NCBI GenBank assembly: GCA_011390205.1
Contig: JAABSX010000004.1
Coordinates: 62,001-126,000 of the forward strand
DNA: 64,000 nt
Reading direction: 5' to 3'
From: Microscillaceae bacterium
GTDB lineage: Bacteria > Bacteroidota > Bacteroidia > Cytophagales > Microscillaceae
Part shown: one piece after another, positions 34,201 to 62,952 of the stretch
Layout of the letters: each line of letters starts with the position of its first letter
How positions within the stretch are numbered: position 1 is the stretch's first letter
Notes under the pieces: model-generated
Told to the model about the DNA's origin: nothing
Seen by the model: the letters and a program-made list of their open reading frames with translations, nothing else
Database searches by the model: none
Program-made: the position numbers and the translations under genes

Positions 34201-36426
34201 TTATTTGGGGATAAAGAGAAAATCTGCTCCAGGATCACTCTGCCCTAGCTGCCCTAAGAGAGGCTGGGGAGTTATCAACCCCACAAACTGCATAATCTCA
34301 CCTAGAGTAAGCACACGGTCACTTCCACCTTCACTTCTGAGTGCTTCTAGCAAGCGGCGGCAAAAAGGCGAGTGCTGCCCTGGTCTTCCATCGGGCACAT
34401 ATTCTTTTCCACCTGAGGTAAGGTATATTTTTGATTTAAGGCTCATTTTCCTTCGGATAAGTTCTTCACGGTCATCCTCGAAGGTGGTCTCTGCCCCTCT
34501 CATAGCGATGAGTGGGTCTATCGTACCTCCAAAGCATACATCCATGATGAGCAGCACATGCTTGCAGTTGATATTATTGACATAGGTGCGTAGGTTAGAG
34601 TGGGCAATGTAGCTAGACCTAGATTGATCATTAAAGTCAGAATCTTTGGCTACGACATAGCCCTCTCCGAAGCCATAGTCAAACTGCCCATGCCCTGCAA
34701 AGAAAATCAGCAGTTGGTCATTGGGTCCATACTGTAGCTGCACATACTCTTTGATTTTAAGTAAAATCTGTTCTTTGCTCAGGTTAATCTGTATATCTAT
34801 TCGGTATCCGTAGATTTCCTCGAGGTCTTTTCCCAGTGTCTTGGCATCATTGATGGGGTTTATGAGTGGAGACCAGGAGTCATATACATTGGTTGCGAAT
34901 ATGAGGGCTATTTTGTTGCCACCTGTATCATTTTTTTGTTCTTTACGGTTGTTTGCTAAAGGTTTTTTGGCTGCTTTATCTACTTGAAAATGAGCTTTGG
35001 CTTCGTTTCCTCGGCTATCAATGGCTCTAATCGTGATTTGATTACTTTCGCTGCGCAGTACTGTTTCACCATCAAAATTGCCGTTTGCTTGTAGCCGAGC
35101 GGGGTTTCCGTTAATGAGTACACTGACCACGCCACTTTCATCTGTTGCCTGCCCTATGACGGTGATTTTGTCTGATTCTTCTACTAAAATGACCCCCCTG
35201 CTATTTGCCTCTGGTGCAAATATTCTGAGAACGGGCGGAGTTTGGTCTATTTTTTCTCTTTCTATCTGAGCTATCAGTTCTTTTATTTGTCTGTCATCTT
35301 TGTCTTCACGTTTTGCAAGTGTTTGTGCTTTGTTTGCAGCCTCTGCAGCGAGAGTTGTTTTTTTATTTTTGTATAAGATTTGGGCATAAAGTAGCTGGTA
35401 TTCGTAACTTTCTTTCATTTCTGCAGCTCTGTTTGCCCATACCTCAGATTTAGGTACAATCTTCTCCTCTACGGGGTATTGCTCTTCCTTTGCATAAAGA
35501 TAAGTTTGCTGTGCTATAAAGTAATAATCTTCGGCATTTTTTGCTTGTGAGAGGAAGTTTTGGAAGTCATACTCGTGTCTTTCTATTTCTTTAAGATTGT
35601 AAGAAGCAATGCCTCTGATGACATAAGCCTTCTGAAAGCGGCGATTGTGCAAAATGGCACGGTTTGCATCACGCTGTGCTTCACCATCACTGTTTAGGGA
35701 TAGTTTTAGCATTGCCCTTTTGAAGTAGGCTTCGGAGTTAGACCTGTCTATATTGGTGGCTGAGGTGTAATACTCTACGGCTTTGCTTTTCTCATTGTTT
35801 TCAAAGTAATAGTGTGCAAGGTTGATATGATTGGAAGCATTTTGAGGGTCAAGGTTTACTGCCCTCGTGAGGTAATCTAGAGCCTCCTGGTTTTTTCCTT
35901 GTTTCAGATAAATAAGTCCTATTGTGCTGATTGTGGGTGGATACAGACTTCTGACGCTCAGGGCTTCTTTGCAGTCTGCCAATGCTTGATTGTATCTTGC
36001 TTCCTGTAAATTGGTGATTGCCTTTGCTACATAAAAATCAGGATTATTGTCTGTGATGGAGATGGCTTTGTTAAAATCCCAGAGAGCCATAGACTTGTTT
36101 GCAAGCTCGAGCTGTGTCTTACCTCTCCAGTAATAAAACATAGCTGTTTGGGGAGCCAACTGTACTGTTGTGTTAAAATCTTGAAGTGCATCTACATGAA
36201 GCCCCATTGCATAGTAGGTAAGACCTCTTTGGTAATAAGCGTCTTCTGATTTGTTGTTAAGTTTTATGGCTTTGCCAAAATCATCAAGGGCGGCAGTGTA
36301 AACACGTGCCTCCATTTTTTGCTTACCACTTTCGATATACTCCGAGGCTGTCTGTGCTAAGACTGGAGATAGAGACAAGCACATAGCTATCCCTAAAAGT
36401 AGATTTTTTTTAATTTTTGGTGTCAT
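34201..36426 (-). CDS. TPR protein with Ig-like and caspase-like (C14) peptidase domains
   Basis: The 741-residue protein has a signal peptide (LLLGIAMCLSLSPVLAQ) and about eight TPR units (about 28-380; AYYQRGLTYYAMGLHVDALQDF). An Ig/glucodextranase-B-like domain (about 395-480, PPVLRIFAPEANS ... VLINGNPARL) follows, then a caspase fold (about 505-735). The catalytic dyad is intact: His579 in FFAGHGQFD and Cys631 in MDVCFGG. The substrate specificity is unknown. The papain-family gene follows it on the same strand. Confidence 0.9.
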   Translation of the reverse strand: MTPKIKKNLLLGIAMCLSLSPVLAQTASEYIESGKQKMEARVYTAALDDFGKAIKLNNKSEDAYYQRGLTYYAMGLHVDALQDFNTTVQLAPQTAMFYYWRGKTQLELANKSMALWDFNKAISITDNNPDFYVAKAITNLQEARYNQALADCKEALSVRSLYPPTISTIGLIYLKQGKNQEALDYLTRAVNLDPQNASNHINLAHYYFENNEKSKAVEYYTSATNIDRSNSEAYFKRAMLKLSLNSDGEAQRDANRAILHNRRFQKAYVIRGIASYNLKEIERHEYDFQNFLSQAKNAEDYYFIAQQTYLYAKEEQYPVEEKIVPKSEVWANRAAEMKESYEYQLLYAQILYKNKKTTLAAEAANKAQTLAKREDKDDRQIKELIAQIEREKIDQTPPVLRIFAPEANSRGVILVEESDKITVIGQATDESGVVSVLINGNPARLQANGNFDGETVLRSESNQITIRAIDSRGNEAKAHFQVDKAAKKPLANNRKEQKNDTGGNKIALIFATNVYDSWSPLINPINDAKTLGKDLEEIYGYRIDIQINLSKEQILLKIKEYVQLQYGPNDQLLIFFAGHGQFDYGFGEGYVVAKDSDFNDQSRSSYIAHSNLRTYVNNINCKHVLLIMDVCFGGTIDPLIAMRGAETTFEDDREELIRRKMSLKSKIYLTSGGKEYVPDGRPGQHSPFCRRLLEALRSEGGSDRVLTLGEIMQFVGLITPQPLLGQLGQSDPGADFLFIPK

Positions 36427-36671
36427 GATAGTGAAAGTCAGAAAGTATTTGATAGATTATTTTTGCATAAAATCTCGGCGCTCAACTTGATACAAATCAT
36501 ATTTTATGAATTGTAAATTTTACAAAGAAACATCTCTGCCAAAAGACTACTCTTAACAGTTAGCTAAAATAGCTCTTTTTTTTAAAAAACTCACAAAAGT
36601 TTAAATTTATTACATAATAAAGTACTTATTTAAATATAAAGCAATCAAATAGCCTCGTCTAAAAGTTATTT

Positions 36672-37427
36672 TCATTCATTCCATATTGCCCAAGCCTTTT
36701 CTGCCTGTAGGTGAAGCATCTCCAAGCCTCCCTTGATTTTTGCCCCTTTTTCTTGTCCTTTTTTCAAAAATTCTGTGATTTCTGGATTGTAAACCAAATC
36801 ATACAGTAAATGTTGAGGGTTCAGAGATTCATAAGGTATAGGGGGCATACTGTCTGTCTTTGGGTACATTCCCAGTGGAGTGGTATTGATGATAAGATGG
36901 TGATTTTTGATGATTTGTCCATTGAGTTGCCCATATTCTATGCTATTTTCTGAGTGCTGATTTACATCTCTTGACACTAACAAAAACTCAATATTTAGTG
37001 CCTTGAGAGCTGCCTGCACTGCCTGTGAGGCACCTCCCGTACCTAGTACCAATGCTTGGATGCCATCCGCAGGATTTTCTCCTAAAAAATGCCTCAGAGA
37101 TTGTAAAAAGCCGTCATAATCTGAGTTATAACCGATTAAACGCCCTTCTTGGTCTATCTTGATGACATTGACAGCACCTACCTCTTGTGCTGACTCTGAG
37201 AGTGAGCTTAAGTAAGGAATAACTACTTTCTTGTACGGAATAGTTATATTTAATCCTTTTATTTCAGGATTATTTCTCATTAATTCTTTTAAATCTTCAA
37301 TTTTAGCAAGCTCAAAAAGCTCATATTGACTGTCTGCTATGTTTTCTTTTTGAAATTTTTCTGTAAAATATTTTTTAGAAAAAGAATGAGATAGTTGATA
37401 GCCAATCAATCCATATATCTTTGCCAT
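36672..37427 (-). CDS. aroE: Shikimate dehydrogenase
   Basis: The 251-residue enzyme reduces 3-dehydroshikimate with NADPH in aromatic amino acid synthesis. It starts GLIGYQLSHSFSKKYF, with the shikimate-binding serines. NITIPYKK contains the catalytic Lys, GAVNVI and VLGTGGASQAVQAAL form the cofactor loop, and NTTPLGMYP and GLEMLHLQAEKAW lie at the C-terminus. The length is typical or slightly short. Confidence 0.95.
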   Translation of the reverse strand: MAKIYGLIGYQLSHSFSKKYFTEKFQKENIADSQYELFELAKIEDLKELMRNNPEIKGLNITIPYKKVVIPYLSSLSESAQEVGAVNVIKIDQEGRLIGYNSDYDGFLQSLRHFLGENPADGIQALVLGTGGASQAVQAALKALNIEFLLVSRDVNQHSENSIEYGQLNGQIIKNHHLIINTTPLGMYPKTDSMPPIPYESLNPQHLLYDLVYNPEITEFLKKGQEKGAKIKGGLEMLHLQAEKAWAIWNE

Positions 37428-37612
37428 GGTGTTGCTATGTTTTTGATAAGTAAATTTCTTGGTTTGCTAATTATCAGCCCATTATACAAAGACATCTGTG
37501 TACTAAATATGTGGGCATCGAAAATAAACTATGTGATATTATCAATCAGACCAAACTACTAAAAAACCATGGTTTATGCAAGACTTACAAACACTTAATA
37601 TAGTGTATTGCC

Positions 37613-38560
37613 TTATTTTTGCATTTCTTGTGGCTCAGAAGATTGCCCCAGATAATCTATCACATACACAAGCACAAAGCCCACAAATGCAAAGATGACA
37701 GACATCAGCAGGTGTGCTTCATTGCCTGTGAGGGCTTCATAGTTTTGAGGGAGCACATTTGCCTCTGTCAATGCTTTTACCTCTCCATGTCTGTCTGTAT
37801 AAGTAGTGAGTATTTGTTTCCAGGGCCAGACCTTATTGAGTGAGCCGAGCATGATTCCTGTCAAGAATGCCATAGTAATTGTGTGGTATTTGCGCAGCAA
37901 CCAGTGAATAACATGAGAAAAGGCCAGTAAACCAATTAAACAGCCTGATACGAATGTAAGGATTACCCATATATTAAACTCTTTGAGTGCTTTTAGAATA
38001 AAATCATACTTCCCCAAGATCAATAAAATAAAGCTTCCTGAGATGCCAGGCAAAATCATTGCACAGATGGCAATCATCCCTGAAGCAAAAATATACAGTA
38101 CTGTCTCGGGAGTTTCGGCGGGGCTGAGTATCGTGATGAGGTAGCCTGTTATAGTACCTATCAGGAGGCTAAGTATCAGCCCTACAGACCATCCTTTGAT
38201 ATTTTTGCCTATTATCCAAGCCGATGCGACTATCAGCCCGAAGAAAAAAGACCACAATACTTCGGGGTATGTTGCTAAGAGGTAGAGAATTACTCGTGAA
38301 AGTGCGACAAGTGAAGCAAGCACGCCTGCAAGAAGGCTCACAAGAAAAGAACCATCTATTTTTTTCCAAAAGATTACCCATTTTCCCTTTAAAAAAAGCC
38401 CAATAGCCTCTGCGTCAAAGGCACGGATGGCTTGAATTAATCTGGAATAAATCCCAGTAATCAGGGCAACTGTACCCCCTGACACTCCAGGCACGGCATC
38501 TGCTGCTCCCATGGCTATTCCACGAAGAAAGATGAGAAATAATTGGCGGGGCGTGTTCAT
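37613..38560 (-). CDS. DUF368-family polyprenyl-phosphate transporter-like membrane protein
   Basis: I prefer the ATG at 38560 (MNTPRQLFLIFLRGIAMGAADAVPGVSGG) over 38602. The 315-residue protein carries the family hallmark GAADAVPGVSGGT and about eight membrane helices, with a second PGISGSF motif in the middle. DUF368 proteins (PopT family) have been proposed to flip undecaprenyl phosphate back across the membrane for envelope polymer synthesis. It lies upstream of aroE in the same direction. Confidence 0.88.
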   Translation of the reverse strand: MNTPRQLFLIFLRGIAMGAADAVPGVSGGTVALITGIYSRLIQAIRAFDAEAIGLFLKGKWVIFWKKIDGSFLVSLLAGVLASLVALSRVILYLLATYPEVLWSFFFGLIVASAWIIGKNIKGWSVGLILSLLIGTITGYLITILSPAETPETVLYIFASGMIAICAMILPGISGSFILLILGKYDFILKALKEFNIWVILTFVSGCLIGLLAFSHVIHWLLRKYHTITMAFLTGIMLGSLNKVWPWKQILTTYTDRHGEVKALTEANVLPQNYEALTGNEAHLLMSVIFAFVGFVLVYVIDYLGQSSEPQEMQK

Positions 38561-38696
38561 AAGTTTAATAAATGCTCTAGGCTTTTGGTAAGTTTGTATC
38601 ACTCAAAACAAGAAGTAAGGCAGCTTTTATGGCTGTGATTTTACTTCTTGTCAGGTTTTAAATTGTCTCAAATTTGGATTATCTCAAGGACAAGGG

Positions 38697-39467
38697 CTAT
38701 GCTTTTTGATTTAAAAAGTGGTCAAAAGTATCACCTCTTAGTCCAAGCCTTACGGTCTCTAGCGGGATGACCTCATTGGTGGCGATGTTGCCTAGGTTTA
38801 CGTTTGCTCCGATGAGCTTCACAAACCAGACTTGTTGTGCTTTTTGGGGGGCTTCCCAGATGATTTTCTCAGAGGGTATTTTGGTCAGAATCTCTTGTAC
38901 AAGCCCTGAACGCACCTCTCCTGAGGATCGAAACAGCCCTACTGTGCCGCTTTCACGCGCCTCCCCGATTACCTTCCAAGCACCTGCATTTAGCTCGGCT
39001 TGCATGAGTTCAATCCATTTGTAAGGAGGGATTATTTTTTCTACATCTTTTGAGCCTACTTCGGAGAGTACTTGCACTTGCGTTGCCAAGGTGCTGATAT
39101 ACTTACATTTATCTTCGTGCTCGATGTCCATAGAGCCATCAGATACTTCTGCAAGGGGGATTTGATATTTGTCAAGTACTTTGCGGTAATCATCAAACTG
39201 ATCTCTGATGACGAAAGCCTCGAAGAGTGTTCCTCCAAAATAAAAGGGGATATTGGCTTCTTTATATACTTTTAGTTTTTCTTCAAGATTAGGAGATACA
39301 TAAGAGGTGCCCCAGCCAAGCTTGACGATGTCGATGTGTTCACCTGATGAATTAATCATATCTTCGGCTTCACGCACACTCAGCCCCTTGTCCATGACCA
39401 TAGTTAGCCCTTCATTTCTTGGCTTTTGTGTTCTTTCGGGTAGATTTTTTAAATAGTAATTGCTCAT
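38697..39467 (-). CDS. comA: Phosphosulfolactate synthase (ComA) homologue
   Basis: The 256-residue protein matches the ComA TIM-barrel family: RNEGLTMVMDKGLS, DIVKLGWGTSYV, YFGGTLFEAF, VSDGSMDIEHEDK, GEARESGTVGLFRSSGEVR, IIWEAPQKAQQVWFVKLIG, and ending LRGDTFDHF. ComA joins sulfite to phosphoenolpyruvate to make phosphosulfolactate, the first step of one coenzyme M route. Later coenzyme M genes (comB-like) are not visible here. In Bacteroidota the product could feed sulfolactate or cysteate for sulfonolipids. Confidence 0.87.
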   Translation of the reverse strand: MSNYYLKNLPERTQKPRNEGLTMVMDKGLSVREAEDMINSSGEHIDIVKLGWGTSYVSPNLEEKLKVYKEANIPFYFGGTLFEAFVIRDQFDDYRKVLDKYQIPLAEVSDGSMDIEHEDKCKYISTLATQVQVLSEVGSKDVEKIIPPYKWIELMQAELNAGAWKVIGEARESGTVGLFRSSGEVRSGLVQEILTKIPSEKIIWEAPQKAQQVWFVKLIGANVNLGNIATNEVIPLETVRLGLRGDTFDHFLNQKA

Positions 39468-39576
39468 TTGATGATTAGGATTTTAATGATGATAAATAAT
39501 TTTCTTTATCAATGATTTTAATGTGTTTTTAAGGTGAAGTGTTTCACTACTTAATTAATCTGCAATTTAGTAGATA

Positions 39577-40965
39577 TTATCTATTTTTAAATTGTTGGAT
39601 GATTTTATAGATGGCTTTTTGGCTTTCTAATTTTGGAAAAAACTCATACAGCTCTTGGTGTGCCTCATAATTGAGAGCAAGTGCCATTTCTAAGTTATCT
39701 AGGGCATCTTGATAGTTGCCAAGGCTGAGGGCATAAGCTACTGCTCTGTAATACAAAGAAGCGCTTTCGGGGCATTGCTCCAGTCCTTCATAGATGAGCT
39801 CAATGGCTTGTAAAGTATCTCCTTGCTCATAGTACAGTTTTGACCAGTTGAGCCATAACTTTGGGTTGTATGCACCTATTTTTTCGGCTTCTCTGTATGC
39901 CTCAAGGCTGTTTACCACATTTCCGAGCTGAAACTCACTGTCTGCAATGGCTATCCAGAAGATTTCATTGTGTGGATTAAGCTGTGCTGCCTTTCTGAGG
40001 AAGTGCAGTGCTTCATTCCATTTTTGCTGTGCAAAGAGGCAGGCTCCTAGTCCATACCAGGCATCTTCCCAGGCTTGCTCTATCTTAATGGAAGCTTTGT
40101 AGTTGATGATGGCTGACTCGTAGTCACCCTGTTTTTCGTAGCAAGCCCCCAAGCAGCAGAGTAAATCAGGATTATCTTCTGCATACTCAAGGGCTTGTGT
40201 ATATGATTTTTGAGCTTCACTGTATTTTTTTGTATCCATGTAGATATGCCCCATTTCTATGTATGCTTGTGCCAGCTCATCATCAATCGTGCTGGCATAA
40301 TCAAATGCCTGCAGTGCTTTGCCGTACTCTTGAGTTTTGCTATAAAAAAGCCCTAAATTATACCAAGCAAAGCTAGAGTAAGGGTCATTATTTACGAATT
40401 GCTCATAGAAAGCCAAACCTTTGTGTAATTCACCAATCATATCTAAACAATAATTTAGCTCATAGACTGCTGCCTCATGTGTGTAGTTTTGGTGGATAGT
40501 CTTCTTATAATATTCAATGGCTTGGCTATACTCTTCTAGCCCTTGGTAGGCATAGCCCGTTCTAAAATAAACATCTTCTAGCTCATCACTTTGCAAGGCT
40601 AGTTTTTCGAGGATGTATATACTTTTTTGAAAAAAACCCAAGGTAGTATAGATAGTTTCTATAAAGAACAAAAGCTCTGTCTCATAGGCATAGTTCTCGA
40701 TAAGTTCTTCGGCAAGTGTGATTACATCTTCTACACGGTCTAGCTGTGCAAGTATCTCTAGTTTTGCCTGCTGCGGCTCTATGGAGTAAGGGTGCTGTGT
40801 GGCAGCCCATTCACAGGCGATGAGGGCTTTGTCCCATTGTTGTTTTTGGCGATAGTGATGGATAATTCTTTCAAAGGCATCTAGTTCTAAGTAAATAGAT
40901 TTATCTTCGGTAAGTACACGTTCAAAATTTTGAATAAGTACTTGGTTATCTTCTTTATTTGACAT
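39577..40965 (-). CDS. Tetratricopeptide-repeat protein
   Basis: The 462-residue soluble protein has no signal peptide and is composed almost entirely of TPR units (for example WYNLGLFYSKTQEYGKALQAFDYA and LCCLGACYEKQGDYESAIINYKAS, about ten repeats). It is probably a cytoplasmic scaffold. It is preceded by the odd duplicated leader at 41088-41201, which carries the candidate promoter. Confidence 0.86.
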   Translation of the reverse strand: MSNKEDNQVLIQNFERVLTEDKSIYLELDAFERIIHHYRQKQQWDKALIACEWAATQHPYSIEPQQAKLEILAQLDRVEDVITLAEELIENYAYETELLFFIETIYTTLGFFQKSIYILEKLALQSDELEDVYFRTGYAYQGLEEYSQAIEYYKKTIHQNYTHEAAVYELNYCLDMIGELHKGLAFYEQFVNNDPYSSFAWYNLGLFYSKTQEYGKALQAFDYASTIDDELAQAYIEMGHIYMDTKKYSEAQKSYTQALEYAEDNPDLLCCLGACYEKQGDYESAIINYKASIKIEQAWEDAWYGLGACLFAQQKWNEALHFLRKAAQLNPHNEIFWIAIADSEFQLGNVVNSLEAYREAEKIGAYNPKLWLNWSKLYYEQGDTLQAIELIYEGLEQCPESASLYYRAVAYALSLGNYQDALDNLEMALALNYEAHQELYEFFPKLESQKAIYKIIQQFKNR

Positions 40966-41087
40966 TTTCTAAAATTTAGGTGATGGCAATAATTCACTTT
41001 ATGTGAATACTCTCTGCCTAGATAGATTGTTTTTATAGTTACAAGGTGCCGTTTTATGTCATTTGGCATTGCCTTTCGATTGCTGCC

Positions 41088-41125
41088 CTCTCCGTAGATA
41101 CTCACCATAATTCCTCCTTTCGGAT
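41088..41125 (-). repeat. 38-bp perfect direct repeat, promoter-distal copy, with Shine-Dalgarno and ATG
   Basis: It is identical to 41164-41201. Read on the minus strand it has TCCGAAAGGAGG, then AATT and ATG (41108), starting MVSIYGEGSNRK; this frame stays open to 40887 (73 residues), overlapping the start of the TPR gene out of frame. A strong Shine-Dalgarno is unusual here because the other leaders are A-rich. The TCC-GAAA-GGA core forms a GNRA-type tetraloop hairpin. Confidence 0.75.
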
Positions 41126-41163
41126 AAATGAAAGGCATGTTTGGATAATTATCAAACAAGGGT

Positions 41164-41201
41164 CTCTCCGTAGATACTCACCATAATTCCTCCTTTCGGA
41201 T
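41164..41201 (-). repeat. 38-bp perfect direct repeat, promoter-proximal copy
   Basis: It is the same 38 bp as 41088-41125; the period is 76 bp with a 38-bp spacer that contains GATAATTATC, a 10-bp palindrome. Its ATG at 41184 gives a ten-residue peptide (MVSIYGETLV, stop at 41152). The same frame is open from an ATG at 41220, giving a 22-residue peptide. Confidence 0.75.
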
Positions 41202-41228
41202 CGGGTTTTGTGTGTGACATAATCACCC

Positions 41229-41236
41229 CAAAATTA
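41229..41236 (-). promoter_or_regulatory. Possible -7 element for the TPR-gene leader
   Basis: On the minus strand TAATTTTG fits the Bacteroidota TAnnTTTG element and lies about 28 nt ahead of the first 38-bp repeat. No clear TTTG at the -33 spacing is seen, so it is weak. Confidence 0.35.
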
Positions 41237-41247
41237 CAATGAAATTA

Positions 41248-42231
41248 CTAAACTTTTGTAAGACTGTATTTTTTTATCAGTTCTGTGCATGTCCATTCTA
41301 TGCTTTCTGGCAGGGTTCTAAATTTGATATTGAGTTTTGTAACGGCTTTTTGATTGTCATATTGAAATGATTTTTGTGCCATAGAGGCAGTTTCACGAGA
41401 GATAAGAGGGGCTTTGCCAGTGATGAGTGAGAGTACATAAGCGGCTCTCCAAGCGATGGCAGCCATCCAAGGTTTTACGAGCCTAGAGGGGGCTTTTTTG
41501 TCAAAGCCTTTTGCTATGAGTTCAAAGAATTTTTTGTATTCCATAGAATCACTGTTTAAGATAAACCTTTCGTTGCTTAGTGCTGAGTGTAGCCCCTGAT
41601 AAAGTGCTTCTGCCACATCCCTTACATCTACAGCATTGATGATTCCTTGGGTGTAGTATGATTTTTCTCTCCATACATATCTAAACAACTGTGTGCTGCT
41701 CGCCTCCCAGTCACCTGGTCCCAGCACTACTGAGGGGTTTAAAATAAACGTATTGAGTCCTTCGGCTTGCCCTCTCCATACTTCCACTTCTGCCAGATAT
41801 TTACTTTTGCTGTAGTGTGTGTTTTGGTCTGAGTCTTCCCAGAGGATGTTTTCATGGATGATGTCTGTATTTTTAGGTCTTCCAAGTGCAGCGACAGAGC
41901 TGATATGGCAAAATTTTTTGATAGAATGATGAAGCGCTACATTGATAAGGTTGCGAGTGCCTGTTACATTGGTGCGGTACATTTCTGCTCGTTCTTTGCC
42001 CACAAATGAGACCAAAGCTGCACAATGCACTACATATTCTACTCCATCCATATAATCTTCTAGTTTCGGGATGTCAAACAAATCACCTATTACCCACTCC
42101 AAGTGGGCATCTTGTGCCAGTGAAGATAATTTTTTTTTGCGTGTGAGCGCCCTTATTTTGTATCCTTCTGAGAGAAGTTTTTGAATGACAAAACTCCCAA
42201 TCAGCCCACTGCCTCCTGTAATAAATATCAT
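41248..42231 (-). CDS. NAD-dependent epimerase/dehydratase family protein
   Basis: The 327-residue extended SDR starts MIFITGGSGLIGSFVIQKLLSEG with the GGSGLIGS dinucleotide loop. It contains VEYVVHCAALVSF, a HISSVAALGRP segment and a catalytic HYSKSKYLAE (YxxxK), then NPSVVLGPGDW. It resembles dihydroflavonol-4-reductase-like or 3-beta-HSD-like members. The substrate is unknown. It lies just below the exopolysaccharide control operon on the same strand. Confidence 0.88.
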   Translation of the reverse strand: MIFITGGSGLIGSFVIQKLLSEGYKIRALTRKKKLSSLAQDAHLEWVIGDLFDIPKLEDYMDGVEYVVHCAALVSFVGKERAEMYRTNVTGTRNLINVALHHSIKKFCHISSVAALGRPKNTDIIHENILWEDSDQNTHYSKSKYLAEVEVWRGQAEGLNTFILNPSVVLGPGDWEASSTQLFRYVWREKSYYTQGIINAVDVRDVAEALYQGLHSALSNERFILNSDSMEYKKFFELIAKGFDKKAPSRLVKPWMAAIAWRAAYVLSLITGKAPLISRETASMAQKSFQYDNQKAVTKLNIKFRTLPESIEWTCTELIKKYSLTKV

Positions 42232-42287
42232 ATGATTATTTGAGTGATTAATGAAGCCTACCTGACACAGCCTTGGCTTCTGATGGT

Positions 42288-43061
42288 TTATAATGTGATG
42301 GTATGATTGATCATTTCGTCTAAGGGAATTTTTTGAAAACTGGGCTGCTCAAAGCTTTTGTGCAAATGCTGCAGATGCCCTATTTTGTGGCAGTCAGAGC
42401 CCAGACAACTGACCCACCCGAGTTGGATGATTCTTTCGGCAAGGTCTTTAGCTCCTTTGCCATAGTAACCGTTGAGGGAGTTGAGGTTAATCTGTAGTTT
42501 GACCCCTTTTTCATAAATTTTGGTGAGTAGTTGAAAATCATTCTGTAGATAATGGTACCTCTCAGGGTGTGCAAACAGTGGCTGTATGCCTTGTGCCTGC
42601 ATCTCGAAAATCACTGCAAAAAACTGCTTCGGCATATCCATAAAAGCAGTTTCAAACAAAAGATAATTGTCTCCAAAGGTAAGTATCTCTTGCTCTTTTT
42701 CTATTTTTTGGATGAGCCACTCATCGAAATAATACTCAGCGGCTGCCTCTATTTCTACTTGAATTTGGTTTTCTTGGAGGGCTATTTTTAGCTCGGCTAG
42801 TTTTGCTCGGATGATTTCTGGTGTATTGCGGTAGAAGTCACCCATGACGTGTGGTGTAGTGATGAGCTTTTGGTAGCCCATTTTTTCAAAAATTTTTATC
42901 AGCTCAATAGATTGTGAAATATCGGCACTTCCATCATCTATTCCTGGCAGCAAGTGAGAGTGAATATCTACTGTGATAGGTGATTTTTGGTACTCAATAG
43001 GCTCGTCGGGCTGTGATGTATTTTTTTTACTGAAAAAATTACGGTTCCAAAGATTCATCAT
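42288..43061 (-). CDS. CpsB/CapC-type tyrosine-protein phosphatase (PHP family)
   Basis: The 257-residue protein has the PHP metal motifs VDIHSHLLPGIDDG, TPHVMG, AHPERY and a late GSDCHK. CpsB-type phosphatases dephosphorylate the cognate tyrosine autokinase and thereby control capsule or exopolysaccharide length. It overlaps the kinase gene by 4 nt (stop of the kinase at 43058), so they are co-translated. Confidence 0.93.
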   Translation of the reverse strand: MMNLWNRNFFSKKNTSQPDEPIEYQKSPITVDIHSHLLPGIDDGSADISQSIELIKIFEKMGYQKLITTPHVMGDFYRNTPEIIRAKLAELKIALQENQIQVEIEAAAEYYFDEWLIQKIEKEQEILTFGDNYLLFETAFMDMPKQFFAVIFEMQAQGIQPLFAHPERYHYLQNDFQLLTKIYEKGVKLQINLNSLNGYYGKGAKDLAERIIQLGWVSCLGSDCHKIGHLQHLHKSFEQPSFQKIPLDEMINHTITL

Positions 43062-45529
43062 TTGTCTGTGTTATTTTTGGGTTTAAACCACTTCTGGGTT
43101 ATCTTTTGATATAGGCTCACTTTGGGTTCATCTTCATAGTAGCCACCATAGCCATAGCCTCCGTAGCCATAGCCTCCGTAGCCGTAGCCATAGCCTGTGC
43201 CTGTCTTTTTGACTGCATTCAGGATAACGGCAAGGTTCGTAAAATGATGTGTATCTATCAGCCTATTGATATTTTTTGTAAACATTCTTTTAGAATAATT
43301 TGCCTTCACGATATACAAAGGCATATCTACTTTTTGCATAATCAAAATACCATCTGTAACCAGCCCCACAGGCGGTGTATCAATCATGATTACATCAAAT
43401 TTTTTCTTCAGATTGGCTATCAATATATCAAAATCTTCTCTTAAAATCAACTCAGAGGGGTTGGGAGGAGTCGGTCCCGAAGAGATAAAGAACAAGTTGC
43501 TGATTTCAGTAGTCTGAATACACTCTTCTACGGTCTTTTTACCTATCAGTATGCTGCTAACTCCTTGTATATTCTCAGCATCAAATGCCAAGTGAAGTTT
43601 GGGCTTTCGCATATCAAAATCTAAGATAACCACCTTTAAATCTGACATGGCAATGATGCCTCCCAAATTACTACTCACGAAAGTTTTGCCCTCTCCACTG
43701 ATGGTAGAGGTAGTAGAAATAACCACTGCCCCGTTTTGGTCATAAATGCCGTTGCCTGTGGGCAGCATAAAATCGAGGTTGGTTCGGATAGAACGGAGTG
43801 CCTCATTAATGGATGACTTAGGATTCTGCCCCACCACAAGTTTGGTGTGTTTTAGTTTGGCACGGCGGTATTCTGGCACAGACCCAAGCACAGGTGCACG
43901 CACAAGTCTTTCTAGCTCGGGCTGTGTAGCAAGGGTATTGTGCATCAAATACCTGATGGCTATCAGTACCAAACTTAAGACCACCCCTACGGCAGCAGAC
44001 ACTGCATAAAACTGGTATTTGATAGGGGCAATAGGCTCTGAAGGCAAGTTGGCTGGTGATAAAATGATAAATTCGGGCACTACCCCTGCTTCTAAGATGC
44101 GTATTTCGGTTCGCCTGTTCAGGAATGTAACATAGTACTGGTTGTATTGTTCGTATAATCTTGATATTCGGTTATACTCTCTTCCTTTGGTGGGCAGCCC
44201 TATGAGAGAATTTTCTATTTCTGCTTTTTTGGTATTGATTTCTCTGATTTCTTGGTAGAGTACTTTTTTTGTAGAATTGACCATTTCAGCAATGGCTTCT
44301 CTGGCAAGCCCTATTTCTATATTGAGTTTTTTGGCCCTGAAAGTATTGTTTTTATCTACTTTTTCGGCAAGTTTGAGTATTTCCTTTTCTTTGAGTAGCT
44401 CTTGTATCTTGGTGATATTTGCTGTGATAGCCTCTACCCCCAGCTGTGGCAAAATGGGCAAAAACTCTTTCAGGTCAGCTTCTTGCTGCAAGAGAGATTC
44501 TAGCTCACGGAGCAAAGTGATTTTCTTAGCGATGCTTTGGCTGATGACCGAGAATTTTTCAATCTCCTCGATGGCTCTAGCCAGTTTTTCATCTATGTCT
44601 TTAGTTTTATTTTCTAAGAAAAAATTTTGTAGCTGAGATTCATACAAGATAAGCGAATCTTCGTACTGTTTTAGCTGGTCATTTAAAAATGAAATCTGCT
44701 GTCGGTTAGATTTATTTTTTTCTTCGATACTTTTTTTCTTATAGACATTGACTACGGCATCTACGATGTCTCGGGCTTTTTTCTGGTTATTGTCTGTAAA
44801 GCTGACCTCCACGATGCGGGCTTCCTGTTTGGTAATCCCTGCGCTGAGGTTCTTGCGTATGTTATTGGTGAGGCTTACTTTGCTGTTGATGACAAAATAA
44901 AATGGCTGTGAGGTATTTGCTTTTGTGTCAGCATCATTGGTAGATACCCTTAGTTTGAAGGGTTCTAAGCTGATGGTTTTGCCCAGAGGCAAGATTTTTT
45001 TGATGGTCTTACCTTGTTTTTCGTAGGTAACTTCACATCTATTATTGTCCAAAAAATCTAATCCTATTTCTTTGTCGAGGTATTCTTTGTTGAATAATTC
45101 CTCGATTTCTACTTGAAAAGATGCATCAGAGTGTAGCTCATTGTCAATGAAGTTACCTTTTGCAAAATAACTAATGTTTAGGTCTAACAGACTGACTACT
45201 TCATCAATGATTAAATCCGAACGCATCAGCTCTATCTCTCCGAGCAGTTCCTTCACATTGTCATTGTTTTCACCTCCGAAGGCATAAATACCTTGAATAG
45301 AATTGGCGTTTTTGATGCCAAGCTTAAGGCTTGAAGATGATTGATAAATGGGCTTATAATAGCGCAGGTAGGTATAGGCAGCAAAAATCATCAGCCCGTT
45401 GATAAGCACTACCCATATAAGGCTACGACGAATGATGGAGAATATTTTCCCAAAATCAATATCTGCTGCTGCGTCATTGCTATTTTCAATGGGGCTAAGA
45501 CTATTTTGGATATTTAGCTGCTTATTCAA
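43058..45529 (-). CDS. Exopolysaccharide chain-length regulator / tyrosine autokinase (Wzc-type)
   Basis: The 823-residue protein has an N-terminal Wzz domain with a membrane helix (VVLINGLMIFAAYTYLRYY), a periplasmic coiled-coil region (about 250-450), a second helix (FYAVSAAVGVVLSLVLIAIRY), and a BY-kinase domain with Walker A (STISGEGKTFVSSNLG), A' (VILDFDMRKPKL) and B (FDVIMIDTPPVG). The tail holds a cluster of nine tyrosines in Gly-Tyr repeats ahead of YYEDEPK, the expected autophosphorylation sites. The DNA here is correspondingly repetitive (43135-43195). The gene overlaps both neighbours by 4 nt. Confidence 0.95.
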   Translation of the reverse strand: MNKQLNIQNSLSPIENSNDAAADIDFGKIFSIIRRSLIWVVLINGLMIFAAYTYLRYYKPIYQSSSSLKLGIKNANSIQGIYAFGGENNDNVKELLGEIELMRSDLIIDEVVSLLDLNISYFAKGNFIDNELHSDASFQVEIEELFNKEYLDKEIGLDFLDNNRCEVTYEKQGKTIKKILPLGKTISLEPFKLRVSTNDADTKANTSQPFYFVINSKVSLTNNIRKNLSAGITKQEARIVEVSFTDNNQKKARDIVDAVVNVYKKKSIEEKNKSNRQQISFLNDQLKQYEDSLILYESQLQNFFLENKTKDIDEKLARAIEEIEKFSVISQSIAKKITLLRELESLLQQEADLKEFLPILPQLGVEAITANITKIQELLKEKEILKLAEKVDKNNTFRAKKLNIEIGLAREAIAEMVNSTKKVLYQEIREINTKKAEIENSLIGLPTKGREYNRISRLYEQYNQYYVTFLNRRTEIRILEAGVVPEFIILSPANLPSEPIAPIKYQFYAVSAAVGVVLSLVLIAIRYLMHNTLATQPELERLVRAPVLGSVPEYRRAKLKHTKLVVGQNPKSSINEALRSIRTNLDFMLPTGNGIYDQNGAVVISTTSTISGEGKTFVSSNLGGIIAMSDLKVVILDFDMRKPKLHLAFDAENIQGVSSILIGKKTVEECIQTTEISNLFFISSGPTPPNPSELILREDFDILIANLKKKFDVIMIDTPPVGLVTDGILIMQKVDMPLYIVKANYSKRMFTKNINRLIDTHHFTNLAVILNAVKKTGTGYGYGYGGYGYGGYGYGGYYEDEPKVSLYQKITQKWFKPKNNTDK

Positions 45530-46380
45530 TTTCCAGTATTTCTAAGTAATAAAATGAATGTAAGGGCAGTGCTGACCAGCCCTAGTACGGGTGATATATC
45601 TCTGAGTGCTTCTAAGAATGATTTTCTGACAGGCTCTACATAGATAATGTCATTTGCCTCGATGGTGAGGTCATGCTCTGTGAGTCCTTCATAAGTTCTG
45701 AGGTTAATGACTTTGATAGAGGGTTCTCTGAGGTCTCCTCTCACAAGCCTGATATTGGATGCTCTCAAATCAGCAGGCATGCCTCCTGTCTGGGCGAGTA
45801 CATCTATGAGGTTAATTTTTTCGTTCCGAAGAGGCAGGACAGTCCCAGTATTTCCTTTAAAGACAAAAACTCTTTTATTGGTATATCTTGTTCTGACAAA
45901 AGCACCTGGATAAAACTCCTCAAAGCGTTTTTCTAGGATATTTTCTGCTTGGTTTAGTGTCAGTCCATCTAGCCGCACCTCTCCTATTTTGGGGATTTTA
46001 ACTTGTCCATCTTGCTGCACCAAAAAATTAGGAAACTGAAGCGGGAAGGAGTTTCCGTCCTGTTGAGCCATCCCCATCTGCCCTTGCTGCCCCATTCCCA
46101 TTTGGCCCATTCCCATTTGGCCCATTTGACCTCTATTCTGAGCGTCAGGGTTGATTCGGGGTGGGTCTATGATGACCTCTCCACTGTCTGTGAAAACCCT
46201 TACTTCTATGTAATCGTTTTTTTGGATAAGGTAATTGCGCTCAGCCTTTGCCTGTGCATCTTGTATAGAATCACGGCTGGTGATGATATTTTCGGTAGTT
46301 CGGAACATAATGTTCTGGTTATACACACGGCATGATTGTAGTGCTAATCCTAGCAGGATGATTCCTAAAAAGTATTTCAT
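45526..46380 (-). CDS. Outer-membrane polysaccharide export lipoprotein (Wza-type)
   Basis: The 284-residue protein has a lipoprotein signal (MKYFLGIILLGLALQSC), a polysaccharide-export domain (YLIQKNDYIEVRVFTD, then QDGQVKIPKIGEVRLDGLTLNQAENIL) and an SLBB domain (RNEKINLIDVLAQTGGMPADLRASNIRLVRG). A C-terminal helix follows (ISPVLGLVSTALTFILLL). It should form or feed the export channel with the Wzc-type kinase. A Gly/Met/Gln tract (GQMGQMGMGQMG, then MGMAQQ) interrupts the export domain, which I do not know from usual Wza proteins. Confidence 0.9.
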   Translation of the reverse strand: MKYFLGIILLGLALQSCRVYNQNIMFRTTENIITSRDSIQDAQAKAERNYLIQKNDYIEVRVFTDSGEVIIDPPRINPDAQNRGQMGQMGMGQMGMGQQGQMGMAQQDGNSFPLQFPNFLVQQDGQVKIPKIGEVRLDGLTLNQAENILEKRFEEFYPGAFVRTRYTNKRVFVFKGNTGTVLPLRNEKINLIDVLAQTGGMPADLRASNIRLVRGDLREPSIKVINLRTYEGLTEHDLTIEANDIIYVEPVRKSFLEALRDISPVLGLVSTALTFILLLRNTGN

Positions 46381-46407
46381 TCTCTATAAAAGTCTCGTAA
46401 TTTGGCA

Positions 46408-46415
46408 CAAAGTTA
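46408..46415 (-). promoter_or_regulatory. Candidate -7 element of the exopolysaccharide operon
   Basis: TAACTTTG on the minus strand fits TAnnTTTG exactly and lies about 27 nt before the wza-type ATG. The nearest TTTG lies only 13 nt upstream of it (46429-46432), short of the usual spacing. Confidence 0.45.
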
Positions 46416-46507
46416 AATAAACTCTGTTCAAAAAATACCCTAACTTAGCACTTCTTTTATCAATAGTTTAAATGTAAAAGGTGGGCATATCCCCCAAACT
46501 AATCAAT

Positions 46508-47671
46508 TTAGACTGCCGAGATGTCTAATTTATGAAGGTTTACTTTTCGGGTATTTCTTCTTTGAAGTATTTCGTATGATTTTAGGATGTCTAAGTATTT
46601 TTGAATCACGATTTGTTCGTCAAACTCATTCTCTACTTTCTCCCTGCTTGCGAGCCCCATTTTCTCCAAGACATCATTTTCTAAATGATACATTTCTTGC
46701 ATTTTTTGGGCTAAATCTTGGGAGTTTTTGACCTCACACAAGAAGCCATTATACCCGTGATCTACTGTTTGGCGGCATCCTGCGATGTCTGTAGTGATGA
46801 TAGGCTTTGCCATACTGGCAGCCTCTAGCAATGCTCTGGGAGTGCCCTCTCGGTAAGAAGGCAAGACTACTGCATCGGCTTGAGCAATCACTGCAGGCAC
46901 ATCATCTGTAGTGCCTAAATACTCTATGACTCCTTCGTTTGTCCATTCTTTGAGCTGCACCTCTGAGATTCCTAGGTTTTGGTCAGTGTCTATAGCTCCC
47001 AATACTTGAAACTTGGCTTTTAAGCCAGCTTGCTTGCAGATGCGTGCAGCCTCTACATATTCACAAATCCCCTTGTCATAAAGCAAGCGGGCAATCATCA
47101 AAAAAGAAAATTCACCATTTCGCTTAAATTCTACAGGGCTAAATTTATCTAGGGGGATGCCTGAGCCAGGCACGAGGTCAGTGGTTTTAGAGCGGATAAG
47201 TTTTCTTTCTACAAAAAGGCTGCGGTCATCTTCGTTCTGAAAAAAAACACGCTTCGGAAAGCGAAAAGAAAAGCGGTAGAGCATCTGTGCTACTTTGGTG
47301 GTGAAGTTATCGTGCAAAAAAACCGTTCCTAAGCCACAGACATTGTTCACTACCAATTTGCCCAAAGGATAAGCCGCCAATGTCCCATAAATATTGGGTT
47401 TGATGGTAAACTGTAGCACTACATCAGGGTTTGATTTTTTGTAGATGCGGTAAAGTTGCCGCATATAACCTAAGTCTCTGATGGGGTTAGAGCCTTTGTT
47501 TTGCATTTTTACAGGATAAAACTCACAGCCCATTTCTACAAGGTAGTTTGAGTATTTGTCTTCTGGTGCAATGGCGATGACTTCGTGTCCATTTTCCAAT
47601 AAAGAAAGAGCTAGCCCTTTTCTAAAATTATAAATATTCCAAGAGGTATTTAAGACGATGGCTATGCGCAT
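46508..47671 (-). CDS. Glycosyltransferase family 4 protein
   Basis: The 387-residue enzyme starts MRIAIVLNTSWNIYNFRKGLALSLLENGHEV and contains YGTLAAYPLGKLVVNNVCGLGTVFL, PGSGIPLDKFSP, FSFLMIARLLYDKGICEYVEAA, and the donor-binding motif LPSYREGTPRALLEAASMAKPIITTD (EX7E). It resembles GT4 enzymes of capsule and O-antigen loci such as PglA-type galactosaminyltransferases. It probably assembles the polysaccharide exported by the adjacent wza/wzc genes. Confidence 0.9.
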   Translation of the reverse strand: MRIAIVLNTSWNIYNFRKGLALSLLENGHEVIAIAPEDKYSNYLVEMGCEFYPVKMQNKGSNPIRDLGYMRQLYRIYKKSNPDVVLQFTIKPNIYGTLAAYPLGKLVVNNVCGLGTVFLHDNFTTKVAQMLYRFSFRFPKRVFFQNEDDRSLFVERKLIRSKTTDLVPGSGIPLDKFSPVEFKRNGEFSFLMIARLLYDKGICEYVEAARICKQAGLKAKFQVLGAIDTDQNLGISEVQLKEWTNEGVIEYLGTTDDVPAVIAQADAVVLPSYREGTPRALLEAASMAKPIITTDIAGCRQTVDHGYNGFLCEVKNSQDLAQKMQEMYHLENDVLEKMGLASREKVENEFDEQIVIQKYLDILKSYEILQRRNTRKVNLHKLDISAV

Positions 47672-47857: not shown

Positions 47858-49015
47858 ATGAGTCAATATTTTGAAACTGCCAAACCAGAAGAAACTGCAG
47901 TGATAGTGGCAGTATATCACAATCAGCAAGATGCCATTACGATGCAGGCATACCTAGATGAGCTGGCTTTTCTGAGCCAGACACTGGGCGTGCGTGTCAG
48001 GCAGTCATTTACCCAAAGACTTGACAAGCCCGAGACAAAGACCTTCGTGGGCAAAGGAAAGCTGCAAGAAATCACGGAATATGTCAAGGAACACGAGATA
48101 GATATGGTCATCTTTGATGATGACCTGAACCCCTCACAGGTGCGAAACCTTGAGCGTGCCTTTAATGGCTCGGAGATAGAAGAGGCAAAGATTAAAATCT
48201 TGGACAGAAGCCTCTTGATTCTAGATATTTTCTCGAAAAGAGCCCAGACCACACAGGCACACACACAGGTAGAGCTTGCCCAATACCAATACCTGCTTCC
48301 CCGCCTTACCCGAATGTGGACACACCTTTCTAAGCAAAAAGGAGGCATTGGGATGCGTGGACCTGGTGAAAAAGAATTAGAGACAGACCGCCGAATCGTC
48401 AAAGATAAAATAGCTCTGCTCAGAAAGAAGCTCGATAAAATAGACAAGCAAAGCATCACCCGAAGAAAAGCACGTGAGCAAACCGTGAGGGTTGCTTTGG
48501 TGGGCTACACCAATGTAGGCAAATCTACACTTATGAATCTTCTCTCCAAAGCCGATGTGTTTGCAGAGGATAAACTATTCGCTACAGTAGATTCTACGGT
48601 GAGAAAGGTAGTCTTAAACAAAATCCCGTTTTTGCTGACAGATACTGTAGGCTTTATCCGAAAACTGCCCACGCTCTTGATTGAGAGTTTTAAATCTACC
48701 TTAGATGAGATTATTGAGGCGGATATTCTTATTCATGTGGTAGATATTTCTGCACCTGATTTTGAAAATCAGATAGAAGTGGTCAATCAAACCCTCATAG
48801 ACATCGGGGCGACCGATAAGCCCACACTCATGGTGTACAACAAAATAGACTTGATGCCTCCTGATGAGCAAGGCTTGGCAGAAATACACCAAGAAGACCA
48901 AAAAATCATAGGTATCTCGGCAACCAAAAAAATAAATATAGATACTTTTACCCAGCTGCTGTATGATTTGGTAGTGGAGAAATACTATGTGCTCAACCCT
49001 AATTATCTATCTTAA
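47858..49015 (+). CDS. hflX: Ribosome-associated GTPase HflX
   Basis: The 385-residue GTPase has the HflX N-terminal domain (TFVGKGKLQEI, VIFDDDLNPSQVRNLE), the Gly-rich GGIGMRGPGEKELETDRR linker, and a G domain with GYTNVGKSTLMN (G1), DTVGFIRKLP (G3) and NKIDLM (G4). It binds the 50S subunit and splits stalled ribosomes during stress. The length is normal. It stands alone between two minus-strand regions. Confidence 0.96.
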   Translation: MSQYFETAKPEETAVIVAVYHNQQDAITMQAYLDELAFLSQTLGVRVRQSFTQRLDKPETKTFVGKGKLQEITEYVKEHEIDMVIFDDDLNPSQVRNLERAFNGSEIEEAKIKILDRSLLILDIFSKRAQTTQAHTQVELAQYQYLLPRLTRMWTHLSKQKGGIGMRGPGEKELETDRRIVKDKIALLRKKLDKIDKQSITRRKAREQTVRVALVGYTNVGKSTLMNLLSKADVFAEDKLFATVDSTVRKVVLNKIPFLLTDTVGFIRKLPTLLIESFKSTLDEIIEADILIHVVDISAPDFENQIEVVNQTLIDIGATDKPTLMVYNKIDLMPPDEQGLAEIHQEDQKIIGISATKKINIDTFTQLLYDLVVEKYYVLNPNYLS

Positions 49016-61398: not shown

Positions 61399-62952
61399 AT
61401 GAAGGCTTTAAAAATAATACTTTTATTGTGCATTACTGATTTTCTTTTAAGTGCTTGTTCTTCTTCTCTAAGCCCTCATTTCACTAAAAATTATTATCGC
61501 CAAGATTTTTATCATTATCTCTTAAATCCTACCCTAAAGCTAAGGCATGAGTCTTATGGTGATATTGATTTTATACAAAAAAAATCAGCTCTGAAACGCC
61601 TGTTAAAAGAAAAAAACTACCAATTAGAGCAGGTTTTGGCGTATGGCAAGAGTAGCTTAGCTCCCTTTTATGAATATTTTATTTTGCATAATAGCTCTAG
61701 CGAAGGTTGGAATCTACCCACGGATGCTTTTATCCGAGATACGCTTTTACAAGCAAATAAATTTACATTTATTGGTATTCCTCTGGGTGCTGGCGCCATG
61801 CAAAATGACTTTGAAAATCTATCCAAAAATTGGTTTATCGGAGAGGGCTTCCAAAGAGAAGGGCTTGAACTGAATGCCCTCCTGAAAACATATCACAACT
61901 CTAACGACTTCTGGAGTGCTTACCAAGCTATTGAAGGTTTTAATGCACTTAGTGTAGGAGAGGAGCAATTCAAATTACAAATTCAGCTTACTTATGCCTC
62001 CTTTCTAGGGGAAGGGTTTCTTTATCAAGAGTGCATAAAAAAATGGGAAAAAGAGAGATTAAAACCCGAAATAAAGACAGTCATTCAAGAGAAGGCAACT
62101 CAAGGCATAGAAAATACCAAAAAGCTGATTCTCGAAAAAAGTGCTTCTACTCAACTATTGATGTTTAATGAAAATCACTTTTACCCTGCTCACCGCCGCT
62201 TACTCACCGAGTTATTACCTGAGCTAAAGGCACAAGGTTTTGAATATTTAGCCTTAGAAGCGCTGTTTAGGGATGACAAACTAAACGAAGGAAAAACACT
62301 AAGTTTAGAGGACGGATTTTATACTCGAGAGCAAAATTTTAAAGCACTCATAGACCAAGCTCAAAAGCTAGGCTTTAAATTTATTGCGTATGAAAACCAA
62401 AATACAGAGATAGACCGAGAACTGGGGCAGGCTCAAAACCTCTACCAAGCTAGTTTTGCACAAAATCCATCTGCAAAGGTAATTGTGCTAGGAGGAGTAT
62501 CACATATTCACGAGGAGGCAGACCAAAACGGAAAATCTTGGATGGCAAAGGTTTTTAAAGATAAATACGGCATAAATCCACTTACTTTTTCTCAAACAGC
62601 ACTGAATAATTATCGCAACATAATCCCAAATCTTGGTGTATTGAGTCAGGAGGATATTTCACAACCATCATATCAAGCCTGCGACTATTATATTCTCAAT
62701 AATTTAAGTGTAGAAGCCCAACATTCTCCCAATTTTAATTATCACAATACTGCGGAAGAGGTGATCTATTTACAACTATTAGAAATCCCAGAGAATGAAG
62801 AACAACTAGATAGTTTGGTGCCTCTTCGCTCAGTTTTGCTTACACCTAGAGAAGTATATAAAAGCTATATTCCTCATAAAAACCTGATGATGCGTCTTAT
62901 CAACAACAAAGCAAAGATTATCTTTGAAGAACAAATCTCTTTACTGCCTTAG
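61399..62952 (+). CDS. Lipoprotein with a TIKI/ChaN/EreA-like domain
   Basis: The 517-residue protein has a lipoprotein signal (MKALKIILLLCITDFLLSAC). The first 230 residues have no recognised domain. The C-terminal half carries FNENHFYPAHRRLLTELLPELKAQGFEYLALEAL, then FKFIAYENQN and VIVLGGVSHIHEEAD. The E-N-H and H-x-H positions match the metal/His sites of the TIKI/ChaN/erythromycin-esterase superfamily. It could be a metal- or heme-handling protein or a hydrolase. Confidence 0.75.
   Translation: MKALKIILLLCITDFLLSACSSSLSPHFTKNYYRQDFYHYLLNPTLKLRHESYGDIDFIQKKSALKRLLKEKNYQLEQVLAYGKSSLAPFYEYFILHNSSSEGWNLPTDAFIRDTLLQANKFTFIGIPLGAGAMQNDFENLSKNWFIGEGFQREGLELNALLKTYHNSNDFWSAYQAIEGFNALSVGEEQFKLQIQLTYASFLGEGFLYQECIKKWEKERLKPEIKTVIQEKATQGIENTKKLILEKSASTQLLMFNENHFYPAHRRLLTELLPELKAQGFEYLALEALFRDDKLNEGKTLSLEDGFYTREQNFKALIDQAQKLGFKFIAYENQNTEIDRELGQAQNLYQASFAQNPSAKVIVLGGVSHIHEEADQNGKSWMAKVFKDKYGINPLTFSQTALNNYRNIIPNLGVLSQEDISQPSYQACDYYILNNLSVEAQHSPNFNYHNTAEEVIYLQLLEIPENEEQLDSLVPLRSVLLTPREVYKSYIPHKNLMMRLINNKAKIIFEEQISLLP

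Follow-up and report, generated by a model that had tools for sequence, protein, structure and literature searches.

A perfect 38-bp direct repeat lies between two genes in the 64,000-nucleotide stretch of DNA analysed here (the window), and judging from the sequence we consider it probable that this repeat is a lineage-private local duplication within an untranslated spacer, without a selected function. Its features fit a segment copied locally in one lineage better than a gene, and any role in control is only putative. This reading is supported by the identity of the two copies, the uniqueness of the repeat core in its genome, the absence of the core from the relatives searched, and the absence of a coding signal in the longer of the two frames that the copies open.

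The repeat is located in a 282-bp spacer (40966-41247) with an epimerase-like gene on one side and a TPR gene on the other, and the large frames listed from 34201 to 47671 are on the minus strand. In the direction of these genes, the features are as follows.

41248-42231, minus strand: epimerase-like gene (NAD-dependent) on the upstream side; it matches Pfam Epimerase, and the closest NCBIfam model, HpnA, scores under its cut-off
41229-41236, minus strand: TAATTTTG, a match to TAnnTTTG and candidate promoter ~30 nt upstream of copy A, with no clear -33 partner
41164-41201, minus strand: copy A of the 38-bp repeat, the upstream copy by gene direction, identical to copy B
41189-41196, minus strand: AAAGGAGG, the Shine-Dalgarno in copy A, separated from the ATG by 4 nt
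41152-41184, minus strand: 10-codon frame MVSIYGETLV plus stop, from copy A
41126-41163, minus strand: 38-bp inter-copy sequence, holding the imperfect palindrome GTTTGATAATTATCCAAAC
41088-41125, minus strand: copy B of the 38-bp repeat, identical to copy A
41113-41120, minus strand: AAAGGAGG, the Shine-Dalgarno in copy B, separated from the ATG by 4 nt
40887-41108, minus strand: 73-codon frame from copy B, crossing the TPR start out of frame and scoring non-coding
39577-40965, minus strand: gene for a 462-aa TPR protein, on the downstream side of the repeat

Elsewhere in the window, positions 34201-36426 encode a TPR protein of 741 residues that looks caspase-like by eye in its C-terminal half, and positions 43058-45529 encode a Wzc-like chain-length/tyrosine-kinase protein (also by eye), in which a 15-bp tandem repeat encodes a YGGYGYGGYGYGGYY stretch close to the C-terminal end.

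A comparison letter by letter bore out what a sequence-only reading had described, namely two identical 38-bp copies (41088-41125 and 41164-41201) exactly 38 bp apart, or 76 bp from start to start. The minus-strand sequence of each copy is ATCCGAAAGGAGGAATTATGGTGAGTATCTACGGAGAG, and both carry GAAAGGAGG-AATT-ATG, with the ATG opening the frame MVSIYGE. The 76-bp period, not being divisible by 3, puts the 10- and 73-codon frames that begin in this way into different reading frames. The same reading had correctly reported AAAGGAGG-AATT-ATG and MVSIYGE in both copies in different frames, as well as the ten-residue peptide with its stop (41184-41152) and the 73-residue frame (41108-40887) overlapping the TPR start at 40965. 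A perfect pair of 38-mers anywhere in the 64-kb window has a chance expectation of ~1e-13, and a direct-repeat search of the window (exact seed 16, minimum 24 nt) listed no other family. Tandem Repeats Finder returned 12 rows, all short-period arrays (periods 9-21) elsewhere in the window, and no row at the site of the repeat. Aligned with the repeat, the 38 bp between the copies agree with it at 12 of 38 positions, which 13% of shuffles equal; they also share with it one in-register run of six, AATTAT, a length reached by 0.5% of shuffles. We rejected an old array of three copies, the middle one since decayed, on the strength of the former comparison, which leaves the AATTAT run unexplained.

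To describe the start signal, we computed pairing energies against an assumed 16S tail, from which the host's real tail may differ. With this tail, the Shine-Dalgarno of the repeat forms 9 contiguous pairs at -15.8 kcal/mol; the criterion for an extended Shine-Dalgarno of the bS21 type is at least 9 contiguous mRNA-16S pairs, stronger than about -13 kcal/mol. Ten neighbouring genes, taken at their listed starts, range from -4.0 to +1.9 kcal/mol with the same tail, and of rpsU and rpsR in the same genome (one match each), rpsU shows no Shine-Dalgarno pairing (+1.2 kcal/mol) and rpsR only a weak one (-2.8 kcal/mol). The genome's own 16S was not found, and a 16S 3'-end pattern was found in none of the 15 family genomes, this one included; an RF00177 search was positive in only 9 of 14 control genomes, so that rRNA may be missing from these data. 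In a scan of 11,634 windows of 22 nt (11-base steps, both strands), the repeat copies ranked second for pairing, behind a site antisense to a long frame. Of the 20 top-ranked rows we inspected 12: besides the two repeat copies, these comprise ten sites over ORFs of at least 150 codons on the same or the opposite strand.

The genome as a whole holds 26 sites at which AAAGGAGG is followed by an ATG 3-9 nt later. This count is close to its control, since the backwards pattern occurs 19 times. By context, 21 of the 26 lie inside stop-free frames of at least 100 codons, or are antisense to or out of frame with them, and are therefore not start sites by this crude test, which was applied to the 26 alone. 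The five sites outside other frames are the two repeat copies, a 6-codon frame (L051), and two genes, L068, which we take to be ferredoxin-like and whose only overlapping frame is its own gene, and L069, presumably MgtE-like. In L068 and L069, the sole other plausible gene starts with the pattern, AAAGGAGG is well spaced from the ATG and pairs at ~-12 kcal/mol with the assumed tail. For this genome, then, site sorting and pairing energies together support the earlier statement that strong Shine-Dalgarno sequences are rare at gene starts. The further statement that nothing like this one exists in the window needs narrowing. Exact copies of AAAGGAGG also occur at 48338 (plus strand), within a 386-codon stop-free frame and in the same reading frame (L060), and at 61997 (minus strand), antisense to a long frame; because both lie in or antisense to long frames, the claim holds for the exact octamer as a start-site motif.

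We scored codons with a table built from the ten neighbouring genes, whose in-frame test segments are also the training set; these segments average 0.30 bits per codon (sd 0.11, n=83), and off-frame segments average -0.08 and -0.13 (n=83 each). For the 73-codon frame the score is -0.07 (0.00 for its part in the spacer); the 10-codon frame, at 0.13, is too short to judge. The 73-codon frame has no Pfam or NCBIfam match, including in its 90-codon, TTG-started version, and the best tblastn hits in the relatives' loci have E 0.12 (73-codon frame) and E 0.09 (90-codon version). We rejected duplication of a small gene because of the codon score and the lack of families and of convincing relatives. 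RNA folds of five stretches gave z from -0.69 to +0.56 against shuffles, no better than shuffled sequence. The TCC-GAAA-GGA hairpin proposed earlier does form in the local fold of copy A, although it has only 3 bp; a 73-nt fold of copy B prefers another hairpin of 6 bp, CCUUUC/GAAAGG, which would cover part of the Shine-Dalgarno, and neither beats shuffles. Rfam 15 gave no match up to E 5 in 40900-41400 and only a tRNA elsewhere in the window. With folds no better than shuffles and Rfam blank in that interval, a structured leader finds no support.

TAnnTTTG is the -7 box of Bacteroidota, and TAATTTTG is its only match in 40900-41300 on either strand; such boxes number 54 on the same strand across the window. 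Sigma-70-like promoter sites in 40900-41400 number two, equal to the shuffled mean, and no terminator-like site was found in the same interval.

The core of the repeat is unique in its own genome at up to 3 mismatches. One of the 14 other genomes of the family has the core at this tolerance (G012, 3 mismatches), inside a coding frame, and a slightly longer core occurs in one of 389 other genomes of the order (G370, L070; 3 mismatches), with the Shine-Dalgarno interrupted. Exact patterns had no match in the collections of viral contigs and of genome contigs, from which near relatives may be left out. Searched genome-wide and in relatives, the 38-mer was thus found only here among what was searched, which in part favours a neutral duplication over the functional readings first offered for it. 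For the TPR locus, we compared 12 loci from 11 family genomes, all of other genera, of which 10 had an upstream stretch (0.95-1.5 kb). A blastn search with the spacer found nothing at E 1 or better in the 12 loci. Four of the 10 (G001, G003, G006 and G007) have the epimerase gene upstream, 142-951 nt before the TPR match. A GGAGG-led ATG precedes the TPR gene on its own strand in two of the 10: in G003 (L017) it opens an 11-codon frame of unrelated sequence, which begins 28 nt ahead of the TPR start and has its end beyond it, and in G009 (L018) it lies 509 nt upstream. Weaker ATGs led by AAGGA or RGGAG number 0-3 per locus (counts only). The TPR relative in G003 (L017/L029, contig C11) is itself interrupted near its N-terminus, as a split match with one TGA. 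In the genome contigs collection, a TPR-relative pattern matched 25 stretches, none of which was confirmed.

Taking these results together, we suggest that a duplication happened to copy a strong Shine-Dalgarno and its ATG within the epimerase/TPR spacer. The copying would have occurred during replication, either by template switching or by a 76-bp tandem duplication followed by partial loss, and the duplicated segment would have no selected function; if ribosomes use the sites at all, the 10- and 73-residue products would be by-products. The identity of the 38 bp bounds the divergence of the copies, as a rough estimate, to under ~8%, and because this bound is loose, the duplication can be called recent only in a relative sense. 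Of the recent small-gene duplication first proposed, the duplication fits, as that of a short spacer segment; the gene does not, given its non-coding score and the lack of a family or a convincing relative. Three features count against a functionless duplication: both copies keep an intact extended Shine-Dalgarno, its spacing and its ATG in a genome with few such starts; the single TAnnTTTG box, ~30 nt ahead of copy A, would be compatible with a short leader; and G003 has its GGAGG-led 11-codon frame just ahead of the TPR gene.

The next-best reading and main rival, which we regard as possible but a good deal less likely, is that the two starts act in cis as an upstream-ORF decoy: the Shine-Dalgarno sites would capture ribosomes, and initiation at copy B would lower translation of the TPR gene, an effect that the 10-codon frame might feed or buffer. 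The single strong point in its favour is how good the start signal is, and that it was copied whole: with the assumed tail, GAAAGGAGG pairs far more strongly than any of the ten neighbours. The 73-codon frame running over the TPR start, and the frame ending across that start in G003, agree with it. On the other hand, a GGAGG-led ATG stands close to the TPR gene in only that one of 10 relatives, all of other genera, and in other sequence, and the spacer has no blastn match there, so that an upstream frame is not conserved among these relatives. No significant or alternative fold coupled to the frame emerged, and no terminator-like site lies in 40900-41400. A leader-peptide regulator, as first proposed, gained nothing from conservation, folding or terminator searches, and is a possible but less likely reading. 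According to McNutt et al. 2023 (PMC9976891), the anti-Shine-Dalgarno of Bacteroidia ribosomes is sequestered and Shine-Dalgarno sequences go unrecognised, rpsU being the exception studied; this also speaks against a decoy. In the same study, an exceptionally strong Shine-Dalgarno is characteristic of rpsU (bS21 autoregulation), where the extended form reaches -14 to -21 kcal/mol as computed with another program, and weaker ones occur in some other ribosomal genes. The repeat is not positioned upstream of rpsU or rpsR; a TPR gene lies downstream, and the genome's rpsU and rpsR are elsewhere and lack the signal. The single rpsU (bS21) match of this genome (L077, G000:C67:16732-16890) has no Shine-Dalgarno upstream by pairing with the assumed tail, unlike the rpsU genes reported for the phylum in that study. 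A duplicated leader read only by ribosomes with a freed anti-Shine-Dalgarno (for example, ribosomes lacking bS21), such that ribosome make-up controls the TPR gene, is improbable in our view; control would be exerted by diverting ribosomes into the frame that crosses the TPR start, in a genome whose own rpsU is without the signal.

Another explanation is that the repeat is bound by a protein or small RNA, at the DNA or RNA level, with the ATG incidental and the palindrome maybe a part of the site. This is unlikely, if somewhat less so than the explanations that follow: two identical sites at constant distance, flanking an imperfect palindrome, would suit it, but the genome has no second core site at up to 3 mismatches, and Rfam gave no match up to E 5. 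For the palindrome GTTTGATAATTATCCAAAC, three further matches turned up at 2, 3 and 3 mismatches (reversed control, none), of which one was inspected as bare sequence; on these results an operator in the spacer was set aside. A recently acquired or mobile segment, or its remnant, would agree with a repeat private to its own genome among those searched. It is just as improbable as control by ribosome make-up, and the earlier suggestion to this effect was not upheld: the spacer has three phage matches at E 0.9, none of them significant, no plasmid match at E 1 and no exact match in viral contigs, the core has no other copy in the genome, and the spacer G+C (0.335-0.40 in 200-base windows) falls within the range of its surroundings (0.285-0.475). 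For a real 73-residue small protein, duplicated at its start, an open frame with a strong Shine-Dalgarno is set against the non-coding score, the absence of a family and the tblastn values above, and we think it very unlikely. Least likely of all, to the point of being nearly negligible, is a two-repeat, one-spacer CRISPR-like array of 38-bp repeats and a 38-bp spacer. The lengths fit loosely and the repeat ends, UCCG/CGGA, can pair, but a 24-nt core of the inter-copy spacer has no exact match in viral contigs and no further copy of the repeat core exists in the genome.

As it stands, a private spacer duplication has little significance. If ribosomes do start there, the site would be a Shine-Dalgarno-dependent control site outside the ribosomal-protein genes, in a phylum whose ribosomes reportedly ignore these sites at most genes; no Shine-Dalgarno-driven upstream frame in the phylum appears among the literature matches listed (titles and abstract openings), which is no proof of absence. 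That the genome's own rpsU lacks an extended Shine-Dalgarno and an anonymous spacer has two is the only feature that merits a specialist's second glance.

Compared with leader-peptide and upstream-ORF control, the locus shares short frames with a strong start signal that lie upstream of or overlap a gene start; it differs in having no conservation, significant fold or terminator-like site, and its peptide suggests no sensed signal. Compared with Bacteroidia rpsU, it is predicted, with the assumed tail, to form 9 contiguous pairs at an energy (-15.8 kcal/mol) within the range given in PMC9976891 (-14 to -21 kcal/mol, other program); it is not ahead of rpsU or any recognisable gene. The repeat resembles short private intergenic duplications in its two perfect copies close by, its core unique in the genome and its absence from the relatives searched, and it departs from them in that the copied unit holds a complete initiation-like signal, unusual for its own genome.
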